Assembly: GCF_000741205.1 (NCBI RefSeq)
Contig: NZ_JGYW01000009.1
Coordinates: 80,140 to 144,139, forward strand
DNA length: 64,000 bases
Source of the DNA: Bifidobacterium gallicum DSM 20093 = LMG 11596
GTDB lineage: Bacteria > Actinomycetota > Actinomycetes > Actinomycetales > Bifidobacteriaceae
Direction: 5' to 3'
A program made the position numbers and the translations under genes. Positions 7,611-63,639 of the stretch are shown in pieces. The stretch's first letter is position 1. Each line of letters begins with the position of its first letter. The notes below the pieces were generated by a model that was not told the origin of the DNA, did no database searches, and worked only from the letters and a program-made list of their open reading frames with translations.

Positions 7611-7661
7611 GGGCGGCGCATGGGCATGGAGCGGGATGCGCTCCATGCCCATGCGCCGCCC
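7611..7661. terminator. 22-bp perfect hairpin between glmM and def
   Basis: Bases 7611-7632 (starting GGGCGGCGCATGG) and 7640-7661 are perfect reverse complements around a seven-base loop. The stem is far longer than a normal terminator and has no U-tract. It lies downstream of the glmM stop and 39 bases upstream of the def start. It may end glmM transcripts or be a small mobile-type palindrome. Confidence 0.7.
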
Positions 7662-53554: not shown

Positions 53555-54067
53555 TGGACGTTCCTTATCGCTCTCTAAAATAATCGTCAATCATGTACGG
53601 GGAAGCGTCATGGGCATTGGCCGCCATATGCCTATATGCGGGCGCTTCGTCGTTGCAAGCATGCCCGCTATTTGACATACCGCTATACGCAACTAACAAA
53701 CAGTACTATTGTCCGTTGACAATCAACCATTCCGAAGCGCCCATTATTCCGGTTTTTCTGTGACGGCGTGTCGCGTGTAATACCAACGTTTGTTGGGGGT
53801 TGCATCCATGCAGCTGCCGGATAGTCCTGATGCATCTGCAGAGACATCTGGCATACACCTGTCGTACCTGATGTTGTACCTGAGTATGCCATTCTCCCGT
53901 GAGCTCGTACATGCCGATACACACAATCCCCCTACACAGCAACCAAAGACGCCCATACACTATTGCTCACCAATTGCTAACCAATCGTCAACCAGTCCAG
54001 ATCCCAGATCAGCCGCAACCGCCACCCGCTCCAAGGCGCGTACGCGGGCACAGGCCAGCACATGCAC
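53555..54067. other. rpoB upstream/leader region
   Basis: About 510 bp with no credible gene; it should carry the rpoB promoter(s) and a leader. A small TTGTC/GACAA repeat sits at 53709-53722, and GGCATAC (53850-53856) and GTATGCC (53884-53890) bracket a block with repeated GTACCTG. Promoter boxes could not be fixed with confidence. Confidence 0.5.
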
Positions 54068-54913
54068 CTATTCGACGGTCACAGTTACCGGATCGCTGGC
54101 CACTTTCGGATTGTCTTTCATCACGAGGCGTGCCACATAGGTGCCGCGGTCCACGTGCGGCAAATCGGCTTCGGCCACGCATTCATTGGAACTGCGCGTT
54201 GTGTTCCATACGATTTGCTGCTCATCCTTTTGTCCGGCGAACATCAGCAACGGACGATACTGCGCTTCGCAGGCGTCGGAACGCCATACCGTGTCGTTGC
54301 CCGAAGTGATCACGAGCACACGCTCATCGTCGGCACCGTTGACAAAACATCCCGACGGGCTGCTGCCCGTATAGCTGATTGTGGCCGTGAAATCGATGGC
54401 ACCGCCCACGCCTGTTGACGTCGACGATGGTGTCAATGTCATGTTCACATCATTGGGCCCGCAATCGGGCACATTGCTTTTCTTGGGGGCTTGTGGCGCT
54501 TCGCCTCGTGTCAATGCCATCGTGTCGGCGCGCTGGGCGTTCTCATGGATGCGCACGGCACCGCGAATCAACGACACCACGCAAAAGATCACGACGGCCA
54601 ATGCCGCCAACGCCGCCACCAGCGCCACAGCCCTGCGCCGCCTATACATCCACTTCTTCGACTTGCGCGACTTGCGCGACTTGGAACCCTTTTTCTTGCC
54701 AATGAAGTTTTTGGACATATTGGACTTATTGGACTTGGAGGATCCCTTCGAAGCGGATGCTTTCCCCGTCACCCCAGCCTCCCCGCGCTTTGCAGACCCT
54801 CCACGACGCACAGCATCATCGCCACGTCGCCCATCCCGAGATGGTGCACCCGTGCGTGAACGGGCGCTGCTTGATGTGCGCGGCTTGTTCGAATGCGATG
54901 ACTCCTGACCCAT
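54068..54913 (-). CDS. Single-span membrane protein with very basic N-terminus and Ig-like outer domain
   Basis: A 281-residue protein of unknown function. Residues 1-93 are Ser/Arg/Lys-rich (KKKGSKSRKSRKSKKWMYRR near the end), cytoplasmic and likely to bind nucleic acid or acidic membrane lipid. One span covers ~95-117. The outer ~160 residues have four to five Cys and the beta-strand pattern of an Ig-like domain, ending KVASDPVTVTVE. The tail of such proteins is often annotated only as hypothetical in bifidobacteria. It lies upstream of rpoB in the same direction, but 513 bp lie between. The ATG at 54913 has only a weak GGGCAG upstream. Confidence 0.75.
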   Translation of the reverse strand: MGQESSHSNKPRTSSSARSRTGAPSRDGRRGDDAVRRGGSAKRGEAGVTGKASASKGSSKSNKSNMSKNFIGKKKGSKSRKSRKSKKWMYRRRRAVALVAALAALAVVIFCVVSLIRGAVRIHENAQRADTMALTRGEAPQAPKKSNVPDCGPNDVNMTLTPSSTSTGVGGAIDFTATISYTGSSPSGCFVNGADDERVLVITSGNDTVWRSDACEAQYRPLLMFAGQKDEQQIVWNTTRSSNECVAEADLPHVDRGTYVARLVMKDNPKVASDPVTVTVE

Positions 54914-55040
54914 GCTGCCCAGTGTACCGTCCCACCTCCGCTTTTCCGCGAGCCGACCTCCCTGCTCATCAACCCGCTCATCAACCTCCTCTGACCGTCA
55001 ACCGCTCCTCTCCATCAACTCCCCCATCTCATCCTTGACA

Positions 55041-55250
55041 GATGTATCGCGTTTGTACCACGGTGGAACGTTGACGCTACGGATTTCACCTCGTTTTGCA
55101 CGCGTCTGTACCACGGTGGTACAAACGCATGCATTTTGGGCCAAAATCCGTATCGCCGCTGTACCACCGTGGTACGTTCGCGATACAGATTCGCTGCAAA
55201 CAGCCAAAGATGTGTCGCGTTTGTACCGCCGTGGTACGTTCGCGATGCAT
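55041..55250. repeat. Array B: four GTACCAC-S-GTGGTAC palindromes
   Basis: The 15-base palindromes are centred at about 55062, 55115, 55168 and 55230 (steps 53, 53, 62). Copies 1 and 4 have one or two changes. The flanks extend some copies (GTTTGTACC...GGTACAAAC). The array is nearly the reverse complement of the inner part of array C on the far side of the gene at 55352-56479; between copies 2 and 3 the two are identical. No ORF is supported. Confidence 0.9.
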
Positions 55251-55351
55251 CTTGGGCATCCGGATGGGTCTACTCCGGCTCAAGCCACATCGTCGTGATG
55301 GAGCAAACTGTTCACCTGTGCCGTTCGTCAACTGTGCCGAACCGGCAATCG

Positions 55352-56479
55352 CTAGTTTCCATGCTTATTGAGCAGTGGGGCAATCCGTGGGAAGTTTGAG
55401 GCTTTGGGAATACCGGCATCTGCGAGCTTCCTGCGCAATGGCGCTTTGTTGATGGCTTCCGGAACGGTGAAATGTGTGACCTTGCGAACGCCGGTTTCCA
55501 AGATTTGCTTATCACGCAGCAACTGATCCGACACTCTGTTGTTGATGATTCTGTTGGTTTCAGGGTCCACGTATTTTTGCATGCCGTCGCATTCGAATAC
55601 CTGCCATGTGCCATCTGGCAAAATCCACACATAGTCAAGGCGACGCATCTGATTTTCTGGTTGCACACAAATAACCACTTGCAACAACGGCACGACATAG
55701 CCCATTTCAATCATCGTGCCCCTACTGAACGATTCGCCGCCACTCTCGCTAGCTTGATCCGTGTATCGCAACACATCAACGAGTTGCGGCGTGCAGTGGT
55801 CGTTTGCAGCGGCGTAGATATCTGCGAAATATCCGCCCGACCTCAGATAGGAATCGGCCACACCCAACGCATCGCGGAACTCGTAGTTATTGGCGCAATC
55901 CACAACCGTCCGCGCACCTGTCGCCACCTTGATGCCTTGGATTTCTTCATATTCGATTGCAGCCACATGATGTCGTTTGACATGAGTCCTATCCGCCGGA
56001 CCAGTTCCGCGAGTGGTAAGGATATGGATTCCTCTTTTGCCCAGTACCAACGTGGAATAGTACAGATTATGCAGCATTGCGGCATGCATGCCAGTGAACA
56101 CCCATTGCGGATGTTGTATCTGTAAGGAACGCAGAAGCATAAGCGTCTGACCCTGTACGCTAAGTTGGTTCCACGCATCGGTCGGATAGTAGATACCGGG
56201 CATGATTTGGGTGAATTCACCGGTGGCCGTGCGATCACGTACTGTTCGACGAACCTCTCCTGAAGTGATCAAGCAACGGCCAGCCTCTTGGGCCTCTCCC
56301 ATGGCACGCTGCAGATTGGCACTCCAGCGTTTGGGTGGTTTATGAACGATGAGACGTGGCTGCGGACGCACCGATGCCATAGGGGAAGACGCCATATGGG
56401 AAGCAGTCTGGTGAGGTGGTCGGGTGAGATTATTCGCATGCGCGGTTTGCGCTGCATGCTGTGTATTTTGATTTGCCAT
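55352..56479 (-). CDS. AbiEi-like winged-helix protein with PD-(D/E)xK nuclease-like C-terminal domain
   Basis: A 375-residue protein. After a disordered ~50-residue tail, residues ~55-140 follow the AbiEi antitoxin-type pattern (winged helix, then GIYYPTDAW and VFTGMHAAMLHNL). The C-terminal ~130 residues carry GGES (Glu249), RRLDYVW (Asp282), FECDG (Glu296/Asp298) and Lys302 in QKYV, which matches the very-short-patch-repair/DUF559 type of PD-(D/E)xK fold. Such two-part proteins are common in actinobacteria and are often annotated as type IV antitoxin domain proteins; no AbiEii-like toxin gene is next to it. It stands alone between arrays B and C. GGAAGG directly abuts the ATG, so the start is uncertain. 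Confidence 0.7.
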   Translation of the reverse strand: MANQNTQHAAQTAHANNLTRPPHQTASHMASSPMASVRPQPRLIVHKPPKRWSANLQRAMGEAQEAGRCLITSGEVRRTVRDRTATGEFTQIMPGIYYPTDAWNQLSVQGQTLMLLRSLQIQHPQWVFTGMHAAMLHNLYYSTLVLGKRGIHILTTRGTGPADRTHVKRHHVAAIEYEEIQGIKVATGARTVVDCANNYEFRDALGVADSYLRSGGYFADIYAAANDHCTPQLVDVLRYTDQASESGGESFSRGTMIEMGYVVPLLQVVICVQPENQMRRLDYVWILPDGTWQVFECDGMQKYVDPETNRIINNRVSDQLLRDKQILETGVRKVTHFTVPEAINKAPLRRKLADAGIPKASNFPRIAPLLNKHGN

Positions 56480-56654
56480 CCTTCCACGCTAAAGAGTTTT
56501 TTATCGCAGCGCCATTCACCCCGAACAATGTGTATAACCAAGTCGCCGGGCCCGGTTATGTGGATAACTTGCCTAGACGGCGCCAGCATCGTCGCAATGG
56601 TGCTGCGTTCTACGTGCCAGCGTGGAAATGACGGTTCAGCATGGCAGAAGATGT

Positions 56655-56910
56655 AGCGCGTTTGTACCATCGTGGTACAAACGCGACACACTTTTGGCTC
56701 CCGAAGGCGAATCTGTATCGCGAACGTACCACGGTGGTACAGCGGCGATACGGATTTTGGCCCAAAATGCATGCGTTTGTACCACCGTGGTACAGACGCG
56801 TGCAAAACGAGGCGAAATCCGTAGCGTCAACGTACCACCGTGGTACAAACGCGCTACATCCAGGCCCCATCCGTAGCGTGAATGTACCACGGTGGTACAA
56901 ACGCGACACA
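56655..56910. repeat. Array C: five GTACCAC-S-GTGGTAC palindromes
   Basis: Centres at about 56671, 56733, 56786, 56839 and 56891 (steps 62, 53, 53, 52). Copy 1 is GTACCATCGTGGTAC with perfect 12-base arms GCGTTTGTACCA/TGGTACAAACGC. The spacers share short elements (ATCCGTAGCG and its inverse). The array is inverted relative to array B, begins ~175 bp upstream of the AbiEi-like gene start and ends ~100 bp past the mutY stop. Confidence 0.9.
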
Positions 56911-56990
56911 TCCGCACACACGCCAGCCCCATCCCGACGGCCGATAGACCCCGCAACGGCGCAAAAGCGCCACCAACGGGAAGTCCCAAC

Positions 56991-58016
56991 TCATTCGGGC
57001 AGCATAATGGAGCGGTCAGGCAGCATTTCGATCAGGCCGTCTTCGTCGAGCGAAGCCACGCAGCGGTCCAACTGGTTCTCGTCCTTCCACAGCGCGCGCA
57101 CGGCATCGGCATCGAGCACCACACGCAACACCGGTTGCGCCACGCCGCCCTCCGAAGCAGCAGCACCCATGCCCGCAGCAGCCCCGGCATCAGCCAGCAA
57201 CTCGGCACGTCGGTCGCGCAGCGCCTGCATGACCAGGCCGCGCACCATGCGATCGGTGCCGGCAAACCGCTGGCGCGGCCGCGTGCGCTTAAGCCCCAAC
57301 CCCGGCAGCCCGCGCTGTAGGAACAAGCAGCATTCACGAATCGGACAGCTCTCACACAACGGGGCCTTAGCCGTACACACCACAGCACCAAGCTCCATGA
57401 CCGACTCGTTCCACACCACTGATTGCGCGGCATCTTGCGGCAACAACTCCCATGCCAGTTCGCGCTCGGCCCGGCTCGCCGCGCCACCTAGCGATTCCTC
57501 GCCAACGAACACGCGACTCAATACGCGTCGGATGTTCGTATCAATCACGGCGATGCGCTCGCCGAACGCGAAGCTCATGACGGCGCTGGCCGTGTAGTCC
57601 CCAATACCAGGCAAAGCTGTGAGCTCGTCATACGTGCGCGGCAGCACATCGTCATACTGGCTGGCCACCACTTGGGCACATTCCTGCAACCTCAACGCCC
57701 GCCTCGGGTAGCCAAGCCGCCCCCACGCGGCAATCACATCGGCTTTGGCAGCCGCCGCAAGCGAGCGCGCATCAGGCCACTGGTTCATCCAGGCCGTCCA
57801 ATACGGCACCACGCGCGACATTTGCGTCTGCTGGCTCATGACTTCCGACACGAGCACACCCCACGGCGTCGTGCGTCCGAACCGCCAGGGCAAGTCGCGC
57901 GCCGAGACTTCCCACCATACCGCAAGCCTGTGGCGCACATCGTCACGTTGTTCTTCACGCTGCCGGTTCACCGCTTGTTCATCCATGCCACCCATTGTTC
58001 CATGAACATGATCCAT
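56991..58016 (-). CDS. mutY: A/G-specific adenine glycosylase
   Basis: MutY removes adenine mispaired with 8-oxoguanine. Catalytic Glu58 is in SEVMSQQTQ, the helix-hairpin-helix is LPGIGDYTASAV, catalytic Asp159 is in VIDTNIRRV, and the 4Fe-4S ligands are Cys214, Cys221, Cys224 and Cys230. The start at 58016 is chosen for the AAGGAAGGGGG site just upstream; it gives 341 residues, with a shortened C-terminal 8-oxoG-recognition region. Extending the frame further upstream would translate a purine-rich low-complexity stretch. It is divergent from trmL. Confidence 0.95.
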   Translation of the reverse strand: MDHVHGTMGGMDEQAVNRQREEQRDDVRHRLAVWWEVSARDLPWRFGRTTPWGVLVSEVMSQQTQMSRVVPYWTAWMNQWPDARSLAAAAKADVIAAWGRLGYPRRALRLQECAQVVASQYDDVLPRTYDELTALPGIGDYTASAVMSFAFGERIAVIDTNIRRVLSRVFVGEESLGGAASRAERELAWELLPQDAAQSVVWNESVMELGAVVCTAKAPLCESCPIRECCLFLQRGLPGLGLKRTRPRQRFAGTDRMVRGLVMQALRDRRAELLADAGAAAGMGAAASEGGVAQPVLRVVLDADAVRALWKDENQLDRCVASLDEDGLIEMLPDRSIMLPE

Positions 58017-58017
58017 A

Positions 58018-58155
58018 CGGCCCCCTTCCTTTCCAGCTCCCTTCCCTTCCAGCCTCTTCCACACATATCCCTTCCCACCCCTTCCGCCCACGTCCTCCCT
58101 CCAGCCCTTTCCCTCCCGTTCCGCCACACCGCTCCCCTCCACCCATCTCCCGTGT
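58018..58155. other. Polypyrimidine tract in the mutY-trmL divergent region
   Basis: About 135 bases in which the plus strand is mostly C and T, with TTCCAGC and CCCTTCC repeats, and the minus strand is G/A-rich. It occupies the space where the mutY promoter should be. Confidence 0.7.
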
Positions 58156-58222
58156 CGTTCAGCCGCAATACTCTGGAGCGGTTGGACCCCGGTTAAGTTG
58201 AGAAGGTTGAGAAGGAGCACTC

Positions 58223-58891
58223 ATGGCCGAAGACCCGCAGGCGACGCCAGCCAACGAGAACACGCAAGATCCCGAGGCGCAGGTTGAGCAGATGTTCGAG
58301 TACGGATATCGCAAATCGAATTATGGTCCCGATGAGCTCGTCACCGATTCGCACGGCAACCCGATTTCTGTGGTCGACGCGATGTTGAAGCCGCAGGATG
58401 CCGCCAAAATGCAGACGTCCACTCCGCACCTGTGCTATTACTCGCCGCGCATTCCCGGCAACACGGGTTCAGCCATCCGCCTGTGCGCTGTGACGGGCAC
58501 GATTCTGCATCTTGTGGAGCCGCTCGGCTTCAATCTCAAAGACACGAAGTTGCGTCGCGCCGGCTTGGATTATCATGATATGGCGCATGTGGTGCTGCAT
58601 CCGAATTTCGAATCGCTCGTCGAGTCGATGCCTGATTCCCGCATCATCGCGTTCACGGCCCACGCCACCAAGCTGTATACGGAAGTTGAGTATCGTCCGA
58701 ACGACATTCTGCTGTTCGGTCCCGAGCCCGGCAATATTCCCGATCCGACCGACATCATGTTCGGTCCGCATGTGGCTGAGCAGGTGCGTTTGCCGATGCG
58801 TCCGAGCTTGCGCAGCTTGAATCTGACAAACTGCGCGTCGATCGCCATTTACGAAGCCTGGCGCCAGCTCGGCTTCCAAGGCGGCGAGTAA
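58223..58891 (+). CDS. trmL: tRNA (cytidine/uridine-34-2'-O)-methyltransferase, SpoU family
   Basis: A SPOUT-fold enzyme that methylates the ribose of wobble base 34 in certain tRNAs. The three family motifs are present: PRIPGNTGSAIRL (motif 1), LLFGPEPGNIP (motif 2) and RSLNLTNCASIAIYEAWRQ (motif 3, knot and SAM site). At 222 residues it is ~60 longer than E. coli TrmL because of an acidic N-terminal stretch (EDPQATPANENTQDPEAQ). AAGGAG is seven bases before the ATG. It ends at a strong terminator. Confidence 0.92.
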   Translation: MAEDPQATPANENTQDPEAQVEQMFEYGYRKSNYGPDELVTDSHGNPISVVDAMLKPQDAAKMQTSTPHLCYYSPRIPGNTGSAIRLCAVTGTILHLVEPLGFNLKDTKLRRAGLDYHDMAHVVLHPNFESLVESMPDSRIIAFTAHATKLYTEVEYRPNDILLFGPEPGNIPDPTDIMFGPHVAEQVRLPMRPSLRSLNLTNCASIAIYEAWRQLGFQGGE

Positions 58892-60946: not shown

Positions 60947-62059
60947 TCAGCGCTTGGCGCCCATATGCTTGATCTGACCTTGTCTCATGCGACGGCCACG
61001 CCAGAAGATCAGCGAAACCGCGACTATGACGGCCACGATGGCCACAATGATCAGCGTCATATCTTTGACAACAGCCTTTTCAGCCACCTTGGCCGGATCA
61101 TGGGCTTCAGGCGTCGGAATGCGATGGCCTGTCACAATGAGTCGATGCGAGTTGACGCCGTAGGGTGTACAGGTGATCAGGCTCATCAGGTCTTCGCCTT
61201 CTTTGATTTCCAATGGAGACACATCGGTGGGCAAGACCACATTGATGTCACTGACTTCATAAGTCAAAGTTTCGTCATACACGGAAACCGAGAACGTATC
61301 ACCCTTTTCAAGCCGGTCCAATCCCGTGAACAGCATGGCCGACGGCAACCCTGTGTGTCCGGAAACAGCGGCATGCGTGGACGGGCCTCCCACAGGGAAA
61401 CTTGAACCTTCCAAATGGCCTGCCGCAATCTGCAACACGGTATCTGACGTGCCGTGGTAGATCGGCACACGCAAATCAAGCTTGGGTACGGTCAAATACG
61501 CCATGATGCCCGTGCCCGTCACGTCAAGGATTGAGAAATACTGTTTGTTTTCTTCCTCATTGGGCACAAAGCGGCCATTGCCTTGCCCCACAAGCGTTTC
61601 GTTGTATTCATGGGCGAGTTTGAGCTGCTTGTCGCGTTCGGGCTTGCTTGTGTCTTTGACGGCTTCGACGTAGCTGGCCACAGCACGAGAAGAAATGCTG
61701 CGATTGTACAAGTCAGCCACAGTCGGGTAGAGTACGAGGCCCAATCCCACGAGCAGCAGCACGATCATTGAAATCACGAGTGCGCGAAACTTGCGTTTCT
61801 CACGTTTGCGTTTGCGCTGCAATTCCTCAGCGGTCAACGTGCGCACAGCCGGTTCGGCCGAGCCCTGTGCTGGCGCAACATCAGTATGTTGCGTGGCCGG
61901 CCCATCTGCGTTATTCGCACCATTCATGCCATCCGCGCCAGCCGTAGTGTCAGCGTCATCCGCAATATCAGCGCGGTCCATATCCGTAGCATTGTCGGAA
62001 CTCAGCGCTTCCAGGGCGTCGCGCAGCTGCCCGTCATCGCCGTTGTTGTGATCTGCCAT
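60947..62059 (-). CDS. Class C (pilus-type) sortase
   Basis: A transpeptidase that joins LPxTG-type pilins or anchors them to the wall. The 370-residue protein has an acidic disordered N-terminus (~75 residues), a basic stretch, a membrane span (~93-115), the sortase domain with His235 (SGHTGLP), Cys297 (LITCTPYG) and Arg306 (SHRL), and a second span near the C-terminus followed by Arg/Lys residues. Two spans and the TPYGVNSHRL block are typical of class C. GGGAGG lies just upstream of the ATG at 62059. The gene before it encodes an LPSAG-ended surface protein, the expected substrate. Confidence 0.93.
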   Translation of the reverse strand: MADHNNGDDGQLRDALEALSSDNATDMDRADIADDADTTAGADGMNGANNADGPATQHTDVAPAQGSAEPAVRTLTAEELQRKRKREKRKFRALVISMIVLLLVGLGLVLYPTVADLYNRSISSRAVASYVEAVKDTSKPERDKQLKLAHEYNETLVGQGNGRFVPNEEENKQYFSILDVTGTGIMAYLTVPKLDLRVPIYHGTSDTVLQIAAGHLEGSSFPVGGPSTHAAVSGHTGLPSAMLFTGLDRLEKGDTFSVSVYDETLTYEVSDINVVLPTDVSPLEIKEGEDLMSLITCTPYGVNSHRLIVTGHRIPTPEAHDPAKVAEKAVVKDMTLIIVAIVAVIVAVSLIFWRGRRMRQGQIKHMGAKR

Positions 62060-62177
62060 AGCGTCCTCCCCCGTTGGCCTCATCGTCGAATACTACCGGC
62101 TCGACTCTAAACACATGGCATTGCCGTGTCAATGCAACAATCACAACCTGTGCAAGGTCATCACGTTGTCGACGCAC

Positions 62178-62218
62178 CATGATGAAGGGGGTATGTAACT
62201 CATACCCCCTTCATCATG
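62178..62218. terminator. 18-bp perfect hairpin between the surface protein and sortase genes
   Basis: CATGATGAAGGGGGTATG (62178-62195) and its exact complement (62201-62218) surround a five-base loop. A second stem, GACCT/AGGTC (62217-62234), lies next to it. There is no U-tract; it may act as an attenuator or mRNA-stabilising stem that sets the surface protein to sortase ratio. Confidence 0.7.
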
Positions 62219-62238
62219 ACCTGTTACACAAGGTCAAA

Positions 62239-63639
62239 TCAGGCATACGCCTTATGCCGTGGCACACGACGACGCATGGCTTTGTGCCGTGGAGCCATCG
62301 TGAACTGCAATATGCGATCATATGCAACGAGCGACAGCACAATAGCCAACGCCCCCATCTGCCAGAACAACCGCGTCATCGGCAACGATCCCGCCGACGG
62401 CAACGTGGGTTCGGGCTCCGGTTCCGGTTCAGGCGTACTGTTCTTGCTGTTGCCCACGGGATACTGGTATCCGACTCCTTCAACCGTACCAATGTCAACA
62501 AGTCCCACCGTATCGAGATTAATATCTTCGAGTTCAAGCCGCTCATTGGGGTTGACGTTCTTTCGTTCAGCGATCTTCATATGGCCCGCGTCATCGATAT
62601 AGAGGAACCACCAGTATCCTACGCGCTGGTAGCCGTCGGGCGCATCGGCCTCATTAAGCCAATAGCGGCCTGGAGCGAGATTGGAGAACGTCACCAAACC
62701 GTCGCCATCCGTCGGGGCACAATCTTGCGCATGACCTCTTTGCTTTTGGGCTTGATCGCATACGTGTAGCCAAAATAGAACGCGTTGTCGTAATAGTCGG
62801 GCCATAGATTATTCCCGGGTTGAGGAAACTTCAATATCAGCTTCCCGCCCTCTATGTAAATGTACGACTGGTACGCGGGATAAGCGCCGAACCGTCCAGA
62901 CGGTCCAGACCAAGTACCATCTTCCTTATTTCATAACAGTAGTTCCCGTCAGTGGCAGGAACATCAGAGATAAACTGTGTCCCTGGAGGTGCTCCAACCG
63001 TGCGCCTATCCACCTCAGTACCTTCGGCATTCTTGACGACAATAGCAATATCGCCTTTGTATGCGCCCAACGACAATGTATCAGTAATGGGGGTTCCCGC
63101 CAACGAGCCCTTGCATTCAGGATTGACCGTGGCCTTCCATTCAATGGTTCGGACATTGCCTTGCTGATCGACCACTTCTCCTGATTTGCGAATCGACGAT
63201 GCCACATCGATCCAAGGCATCGGTTCCACAGTATCTTGAGAAGTAAGCCCCTCAGCCTGATACGTCACCGTGTTCTTGTTATTCTGTCCGACTTGCCAGC
63301 AGCCGCTGTTGCTCTTGACTGATTCGAGATAAGCCTCATTATTGAGCGTGGCTTCGTAATGCAACACAATGGTCTCACCATCACCCAAACTATTAGCCTT
63401 GCACGCAAGTGTCGTAGCCGTCGTTTCACATGTCGCGCCACCCTCAATGAGAAGGCTAGCGGGATTGAACGTCAACACACCAGGTTCAAACTGCATGACA
63501 TCGTCAATGACCACATTGTTCGTATTGCCATCGCCTGTAACCGTCACCGTATATTGCACAACGCCACGCGCACTATCCCACGTCGCCCGTTTCGTAGCGT
63601 TGAGTGCGCCAGGTTTTGACTCAAATATCACCAAAATTA
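62239..63639 (-). pseudogene. Sortase-anchored surface protein (pilin-like), frameshifted twice and missing its N-terminus
   Basis: Three frames together encode one protein. First (63634-62930): a beta-rich surface domain ending CYEI. One base is missing at about 62928; the next frame then reads KEDGTWSGPSGRFGAYPAYQ and continues to KSKEVMRKIVP. A second base appears missing in the CCCC at 62714-62717, after which comes TDGDGLVTFSNLAPGRYWLN (SpaA/prealbumin-type pilin domain), a Glu-Pro repeat, LPSAG, a membrane span and a basic tail: a complete sorting signal. The 5' part stops at the IS-like end at 63640, with no start codon or signal peptide. It is the probable substrate of the sortase downstream. 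The gaps could be real mutations or sequencing errors. Confidence 0.82.

Follow-up and report, generated by a model that had tools for sequence, protein, structure and literature searches.

A solitary AbiEi-like and Vsr-like fusion gene between inverted, helically phased palindrome arrays of Bifidobacterium gallicum: one copy of a candidate enzyme-plus-repeat system

AbiEi is known from abortive infection. One study (PMC7319586) describes AbiEi as binding two 23-bp inverted repeats set 3 bp apart, and Rv2827c as binding two pairs of repeats, with 13 bp inside each pair and 4 bp from one pair to the next. In another arrangement, repetitive extragenic palindromes (REPs) accompany REP-associated tyrosine transposases (RAYTs), and the repeats flanking such a gene are always inverted according to PMC2817692. 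Here we analyzed 64,000 nucleotides of Bifidobacterium gallicum DSM 20093 = LMG 11596 (contig NZ_JGYW01000009.1, positions 80,140 to 144,139 of the forward strand; this whole stretch is called the window, and positions count from its first letter), in which one gene, whose product is both AbiEi-like and nuclease-like, lies between two inverted arrays of phased palindromes, B and C. We computed the association between gene and arrays, the phasing, the link between period class and lineage, the dispersal, the sites shared between species and the domain make-up of the protein. From these results we consider it probable, if not secure, that the locus represents a single copy of a bifidobacterial enzyme-plus-repeat system that also has relatives in other families of the class and that maintains and perhaps spreads the arrays.

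A repeat search of the window recovered the two inverted arms listed in Table 1, separated by 1512 nt, and a single intact open reading frame (ORF) lies between the arrays. Core palindromes are located at 55055 (one mismatch), 55108, 55161 and 55223 in array B, with spacings of 53, 53 and 62 bp and a dyad centre near 55115. Those of array C are at 56664 (one mismatch), 56726, 56779, 56832 and 56884, spaced by 62, 53, 53 and 52 bp around a dyad centre near 56786. Matches to GTACCRCSGYGGTAC with at most two mismatches number 11 in the window, all within the B and C stretches and two of them weak and overlapping others (55150 and 56737), versus a mean of 0.29 and a maximum of 2 in dinucleotide shuffles of the window. 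The 38 nt separating the second and third palindromes of B (55123-55160) are the exact reverse complement of 56741-56778 in C. The same unit recurs in a third array (locus L056; genomes and loci carry our G and L numbers where needed), which is on a different contig and has no gene, indicating that the identity of B and C is not peculiar to the gene flanks. Thus the initial annotation was right to describe B and C as near-identical inverted copies framing one gene and sharing this unit base for base, and its suggestion of recent duplication or gene conversion agrees with a unit common to three arrays. As RNA, the upstream array is predicted to fold strongly (z -8.6), as expected of a palindrome array. 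No Rfam family matched within 53600-58300, and with helical phasing pointing to DNA, we set aside a reading of the arrays at the RNA level. A scan of 54800-57100 for promoters and terminators gave one site each, fewer than the shuffle means. The exact tandem core had 0 matches in genome-contig and 0 in viral-contig collections, from which our own records were possibly excluded.

The AbiEi-like and nuclease-like labels of the initial annotation also stand. The gene product matched the PADLOC AbiEi profile (E 1.6e-4), as did 27 of 40 family members, and a structure model of the protein has fold matches to AbiEi and to a Vsr-like nuclease; the AbiEi structure 6y8q aligns to model residues 50-240 (model numbering omits Met1). 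In the nuclease-like domain, D281, E295, D297, G298, K301 and R321 are invariant across all 40 aligned proteins, which suggests that catalysis has been kept. Transposase families were absent among the Pfam matches of the 40 members, no recombinase match was obtained for the gene itself, and a PDB sequence search with the family alignment returned one weak match only, to a polyketide synthase. AbiEii (DUF1814) had no match in 10 neighbour ORFs at six loci, nor in the 2 index neighbours. An origin from phages or plasmids was rejected as well: the gene had no phage match and one plasmid match (Collinsella, 30% identity), and one in-genus homologue had no relative among viral contigs.

We found homologues in 42 of the 59 genomes searched, own genome included, and in 32 of 37 within Bifidobacterium, where genomes with a match carry one to twelve copies. 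The 91 loci examined comprise 2 of the own genome, 87 of other Bifidobacterium and 2 of other families. In an initial unbiased look, chains of palindromes at 5- or 6-turn spacing adjoined several homologues. A fixed periodicity test detected a periodic stretch near the gene in 46/91 loci, with lags of 51-53 bp in 15, of 61-63 bp in 22, and of 30 (three loci), 31, 37, 39, 42, 73 and 82 bp in the rest. With flanks limited to 900 bp, 40/89 in-genus loci were periodic, and 49 of the 55 periodic flanks fell at 51-53 or 61-63 bp; among control flanks of mutY 1/58 was periodic, and a laxer lag test scored 2/29 mutY loci. At least three palindromes with exact arms were present in 22/91 loci, versus 0/91 single-base shuffles and 0/29 mutY loci. 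The most sensitive of the flank tests, a BLAST comparison of the upstream with the downstream kilobase, detected similarity in 54 of the 89 loci within the genus and in neither of the two from other families, while mismatched flank pairs gave 0/91 and mutY loci 1/29 (1000-bp adjacent flanks). The recurrence of a gene-plus-arrays unit at other loci of related genomes, raised by the initial annotation, was thus borne out. By best BLAST score the two-sided flanks are direct in 38 cases, inverted in 14 and tied in 2, some orientations being near-tied because the units are palindromic. The sequence of the palindromes varies among loci, lineages and genomes. Contig 1 of G024 alone holds three gene copies (L014, L118 and L120), each with periodic flanks of its own, at periods of 51, 53 and 63 bp. 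G003 has diverged GTACCGTACCACNGTGGTAC arrays, perhaps orphan (L058 141-430 and L065 1388-1570), one beside a tRNA-like stretch as judged by eye; its only detected homologue of the gene carries another repeat.

Spacings between neighbouring units fit periods of 10.28-10.60 bp in six motif/genome sets (R 0.94, 0.91, 0.97, 0.97, 1.00 and 0.61), and coherence in each set exceeded that of all 300 jittered controls. These values refer to the matches listed, namely 48 of 110 for the second motif of the own genome, 45 of 57 for G035, 22 of 31 and 17 of 25 for G024 and the listed part of 134 for G025, with isolated places omitted throughout. Units within one array are not independent; the six sets represent different motifs. 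On the protein tree, the 5- versus 6-turn class changes 3 times over 37 loci against 12.3 changes expected, and 0/500 shuffles were as low; close relatives favour a low count, though motif sequences differ between most of them. This tree omits 10 of the 46 periodic loci, nine for lags that are not 5 or 6 turns (L039, L126, L129, L132, L134, L136, L163, L165 and L168) and L156 for an array lying 1.2 kb off, and has L036 added. For repeated pairs, the AbiEi geometry given in PMC7319586 adds up to a period of about 52-53 bp, assuming a similar gap between pairs, and the Rv2827c geometry to one of 63 bp. These sums equal the two classes found here and would fit arrays serving as multi-pair AbiEi-type operators.

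The arrays of the own genome also possess an internal order. Five-unit arrays are spaced 52/53/53/52, or have 62 or 63 bp at one or both outer steps. In 12 of the 12 own arrays with at least four units, the best dyad centre is the unit having 53 bp on either side. Identity of the flanks about this centre, measured 30-125 bp out from the unit, was 0.40-0.71. At random positions the 99th percentile was 0.37 and the highest value 0.42, which 11 of the 12 arrays exceed; L049 (0.40) is below this maximum, and two further units reached 0.42 and 0.39. A consensus of 53 units spans about 45 bp and consists of two half-sites of about 22 bp, a symmetry that is partly built in by pooling units with their reverse complements. 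Outside the species the whole-array dyad is weaker, and many loci have no single clear centre. The dispersed 61-bp arrays of G026 (L183-L188) consist mostly of about three inverted pairs, the own 52/53-bp arrays mostly of five, and L015 has more.

The own genome (2.0 Mb in 12 contigs) contains 51 copies of the core palindrome and 0 of the reversed-pattern control. The copies cluster in 16 places, and tblastn of the 8.5-11 kb stretches around them placed the gene near one and found it absent near 15. The gene-less array of L056, on contig 11, and array B have 93% identity over 197 nt. A slightly stricter core pattern was present in 2 of 112 Bifidobacterium genomes, the own (47 copies) and G003 (1 copy). 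A paralogue in the own genome, on contig C3, has 59% identity and stands beside its own palindrome, CTGACCA-N3-TGGTCAG, which in slightly looser form has 110 matches in this genome and 0 for the reversed pattern. At L046 (4476-4720 onward; own C3:19975-21646) a GTACC array abuts a long array made up of palindromes of the paralogue's kind; the region is common to both repeat families, and neither gene was found by tblastn in the stretch fetched. As judged by eye from a simple ORF list, own arrays are intergenic and lie in convergent, divergent and same-direction settings.

Similar dispersal was seen in other carriers: G035 has 57 copies of its own motif, which occurs 0-1 times in five other genomes; G024 has one motif in 31 copies and another in 14 forward and 11 reverse copies; and G025 has 134. 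Reversed-pattern controls in the carrier genomes gave 0. In a 61-bp family shared by B. scaligerum, B. olomucense and G026, 16 of the 20 motif-bearing stretches fetched fell into seven groups of orthologous array sites (Table 1), each with two or three species; units of one species are weak in some of the groups. The comparison covered motif-bearing stretches, so it counts shared sites and not gains or losses. Arrays at orthologous sites across species indicate that many arrays are old, inherited sites. The 61-bp half-site pattern, with three mismatches allowed, also had 9 mostly weak matches in G021 and single ones in G036 and G001.

Relatives extend beyond the genus. In a class-wide sample, 105 of 148 genomes, own included, had a match at E <= 1e-10. 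Of 29 outside-genus loci fetched, six were too short for the flank test; the adjacent kilobases of the other 23 carried similar repeats on both sides in 19, and 16 of these 19 were inverted. Shifting the flanks 50 bp outward left 17/23 two-sided and 15 inverted, eight of the 17 being one family and hence not independent. Many of these repeats are visibly palindromic, and several have a common TGATCACGTT-like start. Arrays phased at 5 or 6 turns were not found at the 29 loci; flanks were periodic in four, at lags of 30, 30, 33 and 75 bp, indicating that, within this sample, such phasing is confined to Bifidobacterium. Copies of the flanking repeats were detected in 400-kb samples, at two places in G193 and at one clear place in G189, low counts, with weak matches also in one of two cross-controls. 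Target-site duplications were not evident by eye at 15 outside-genus loci, where the repeat ends are set by BLAST and uncertain. In its inverted layout the index locus resembles the loci outside the genus, and the arrays appear to be a Bifidobacterium elaboration of that layout.

How might such a system work? Binding, cutting and copying by the protein are what we infer; the last two are suggested by the fold, together with the invariant residues and the units that arrays have in common. An AbiEi-type winged helix would recognize half-sites of about 22 bp set as inverted pairs; with pairs recurring at 5 helical turns (51-53 bp) or 6 (61-63 bp), all bound dimers would lie on one face of the DNA. 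The standard element of the own genome is a dyad in which five pairs are arranged around a special central one of their number. Each protein lineage has its own palindromes, as arrays beside the gene and as dispersed intergenic sites, some of them vertically inherited. The Vsr/homing-type domain probably nicks or cuts at arrays, and repair may then copy units among them, so that the arrays stay matched to the protein and new sites are occasionally seeded. A wider proposal, plausible but more doubtful to us than not, is that a repeat family is kept across the class by a homing-type enzyme that is no transposase: the AbiEi module would read the sites, the Vsr-like nuclease would copy them by cutting and repair, enzyme and repeats would co-evolve, and bifidobacteria would have turned ancestral inverted flanks into phased, dyad-symmetric arrays.

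Alternatively, the protein may be a domesticated chromosome organizer or silencer that binds dispersed phased arrays and shapes or represses the chromosome, its nuclease fold being regulatory or conditional and the arrays persisting by usefulness and not by spread. Arrays at orthologous intergenic positions in several species, and own arrays in every orientation setting seen between genes, are consistent with this. One G024 motif also avoids the terminus half of the chromosome: 1.12 Mb around the expected terminus is empty (16 clusters, Kolmogorov-Smirnov p 0.0038; coarser clustering gave 0.02), and the largest gap is centred at 1347 kb, with the terminus expected at 1318 kb. The G024 sequence starts at what we take, from its sequence, to be a dnaA-like gene. 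However, the bias is weak or absent elsewhere (p 0.31 for the second G024 motif; 0.015 or 0.14 for G025, depending on clustering), and clustering of arrays towards the origin is a lead, not a result. The invariant nuclease-motif residues suggest retained catalysis, and the palindrome sequence differs among lineages and genomes. On balance, we judge an organizer unlikely.

A defence device, in which the nuclease stays bound to self arrays until it is freed to cut phage or plasmid DNA, would suit the AbiEi link to abortive infection, the PADLOC matches of family members and the one to twelve gene copies in most Bifidobacterium genomes. It is quite improbable, as AbiEii went unmatched among the neighbours searched and some arrays occupy sites common to several species. 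Ordinary expansion of tandem repeats unlinked to the gene is more improbable still: although the units stand in tandem and some arrays amount to simple direct repeats, periods are confined to 5 or 6 turns across unrelated motifs, the period class follows the protein tree, and repeats flank the gene far more often than they flank control loci. Finally, the initial annotation suggested that the segment could flip, by recombination between B and C, to which we give hardly any credence despite the long, near-identical arms and the 14 inverted loci: direct flanking copies, which prevail in the genus, cannot invert a gene, so that flipping is rejected as a general model (one genome of the species was available); the segment's sole gene matched no recombinase; the 228 bp 5' of its start codon are inside the arms, and a gene-proximal promoter would presumably turn along with it; and the 38-nt unit is found in a gene-less array too. 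Arrays widespread without the gene, which that annotation had itself set against flipping, are what 15 of the 16 places in the own genome hold.

The index locus lies beside mutY. In relatives, 29 of 29 mutY loci have the neighbour gene beside mutY and no relative of the nuclease gene between them; the gap between matches is at most 460 bp in 25/29 and 739-1026 bp in 4/29. At one of these loci, a homologue of the nuclease gene lies beyond the spoU-like gene. Hence the gene and its arrays, about 2 kb together, were gained in this lineage or lost elsewhere. The insertion of a cassette as a unit, as initially suggested, is therefore partly supported: the absence from relatives' mutY gaps agrees with either a gain in this lineage or losses in others. 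Beside mutY in G018 (L092 2382-2900), other palindromes are repeated (CTGCACACTGTGCAG twice and GCCCTCGGAA units), perhaps a gene-less array family. Elsewhere in the window, 7611-7661 is a perfect inverted repeat with 23-bp arms and a 5-nt loop, unrelated to the arrays, and 62178-62218 is a hairpin with 18-bp arms near ORFs at 60947-63634, which by their motifs appear sortase-like and surface-protein-like.

Table 1. Features of the index locus, in window coordinates, and groups of orthologous array sites
Feature	Position	Strand	Description
Segment between neighbour gene (54068-54913) and mutY (56991-58220)	54914..56990	.	2,077 bp
Array B	55041..55253	.	4 phased palindromes, core GTACCACSGTGGTAC and near variants; 3' of gene
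Left inverted arm	55041..55194	+	154 nt, 98% complementary to right arm
Solitary gene, 375 aa	55352..56479	-	AbiEi-like winged helix and C-terminal domain fused to Vsr/homing-endonuclease-like domain
Nuclease-like domain	55406..55744	-	Model residues 245-357
AbiEi C-terminal-domain-like part	55757..56182	-	Model residues 99-240
Winged helix-turn-helix part	56183..56320	-	Model residues 53-98, from secondary structure of model
Array C	56648..56912	.	5 phased palindromes; 5' of gene
Right inverted arm	56707..56860	-	154 nt
Orthologous site groups, 61-bp family			L169=L177; L171=L178=L188; L172=L181=L186; L173=L185; L174=L184; L175=L179; L176=L182

If the interpretation as an enzyme-plus-repeat system is right, the common and unexplained AbiEi/nuclease-like genes of actinobacteria gain a partner, their own palindromic repeats, as well as a testable job. 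It would establish the following: 1) a repeat-maintenance system exists outside the RAYT family; 2) operators change in sequence yet retain a geometry of 5 or 6 helical turns; and 3) a genus of gut commensals holds sets of DNA-binding proteins with matched sites. The maintenance of dispersed bacterial palindromes would then become a directly testable question.

An earlier description of an AbiEi/nuclease gene with phased palindromes was not found in our literature search, which had partial journal coverage; a term search of PMC12306157 gave no mention of Bifidobacterium. Among known systems, AbiE, a type IV toxin-antitoxin system, shares the AbiEi fold with its winged helix-turn-helix and C-terminal domain. 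By contrast, the protein described here has an extra C-terminal nuclease-like domain, it lacks an AbiEii neighbour at the loci checked, and its arrays are dispersed over the genome and do not form one operator. The nuclease core of the model shares the fold of the Vsr/EDxHD homing endonucleases (catalytic domain of I-Bth0305I), a likeness at the level of the fold; here it is fused to an AbiEi module and stands beside multi-copy arrays. The likeness to REP/RAYT lies in a gene flanked by palindromic repeats, in gene-less intergenic copies dispersed over the genome and in lineage-specific palindromes, as described in PMC2817692; outside the genus, flanks are mostly inverted as well. They are not always so, with 38/54 direct in the genus and 16/19 inverted outside it, and the in-genus repeats, unlike REPs, are often helically phased arrays. 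Whereas RAYT is a Y1/HUH transposase of the IS200/IS605-like kind, the enzyme here combines an AbiEi-type winged helix-turn-helix with a Vsr-like nuclease fold. As the gene departs, as far as tested, from both the RAYT enzyme and the AbiE operon, and given the outcome of the literature search, we call AbiEi/Vsr-like fusion genes with their own palindromic repeats, probably REP/RAYT-like in their working but built on a different enzyme, a seemingly undescribed system made of parts of known kinds.
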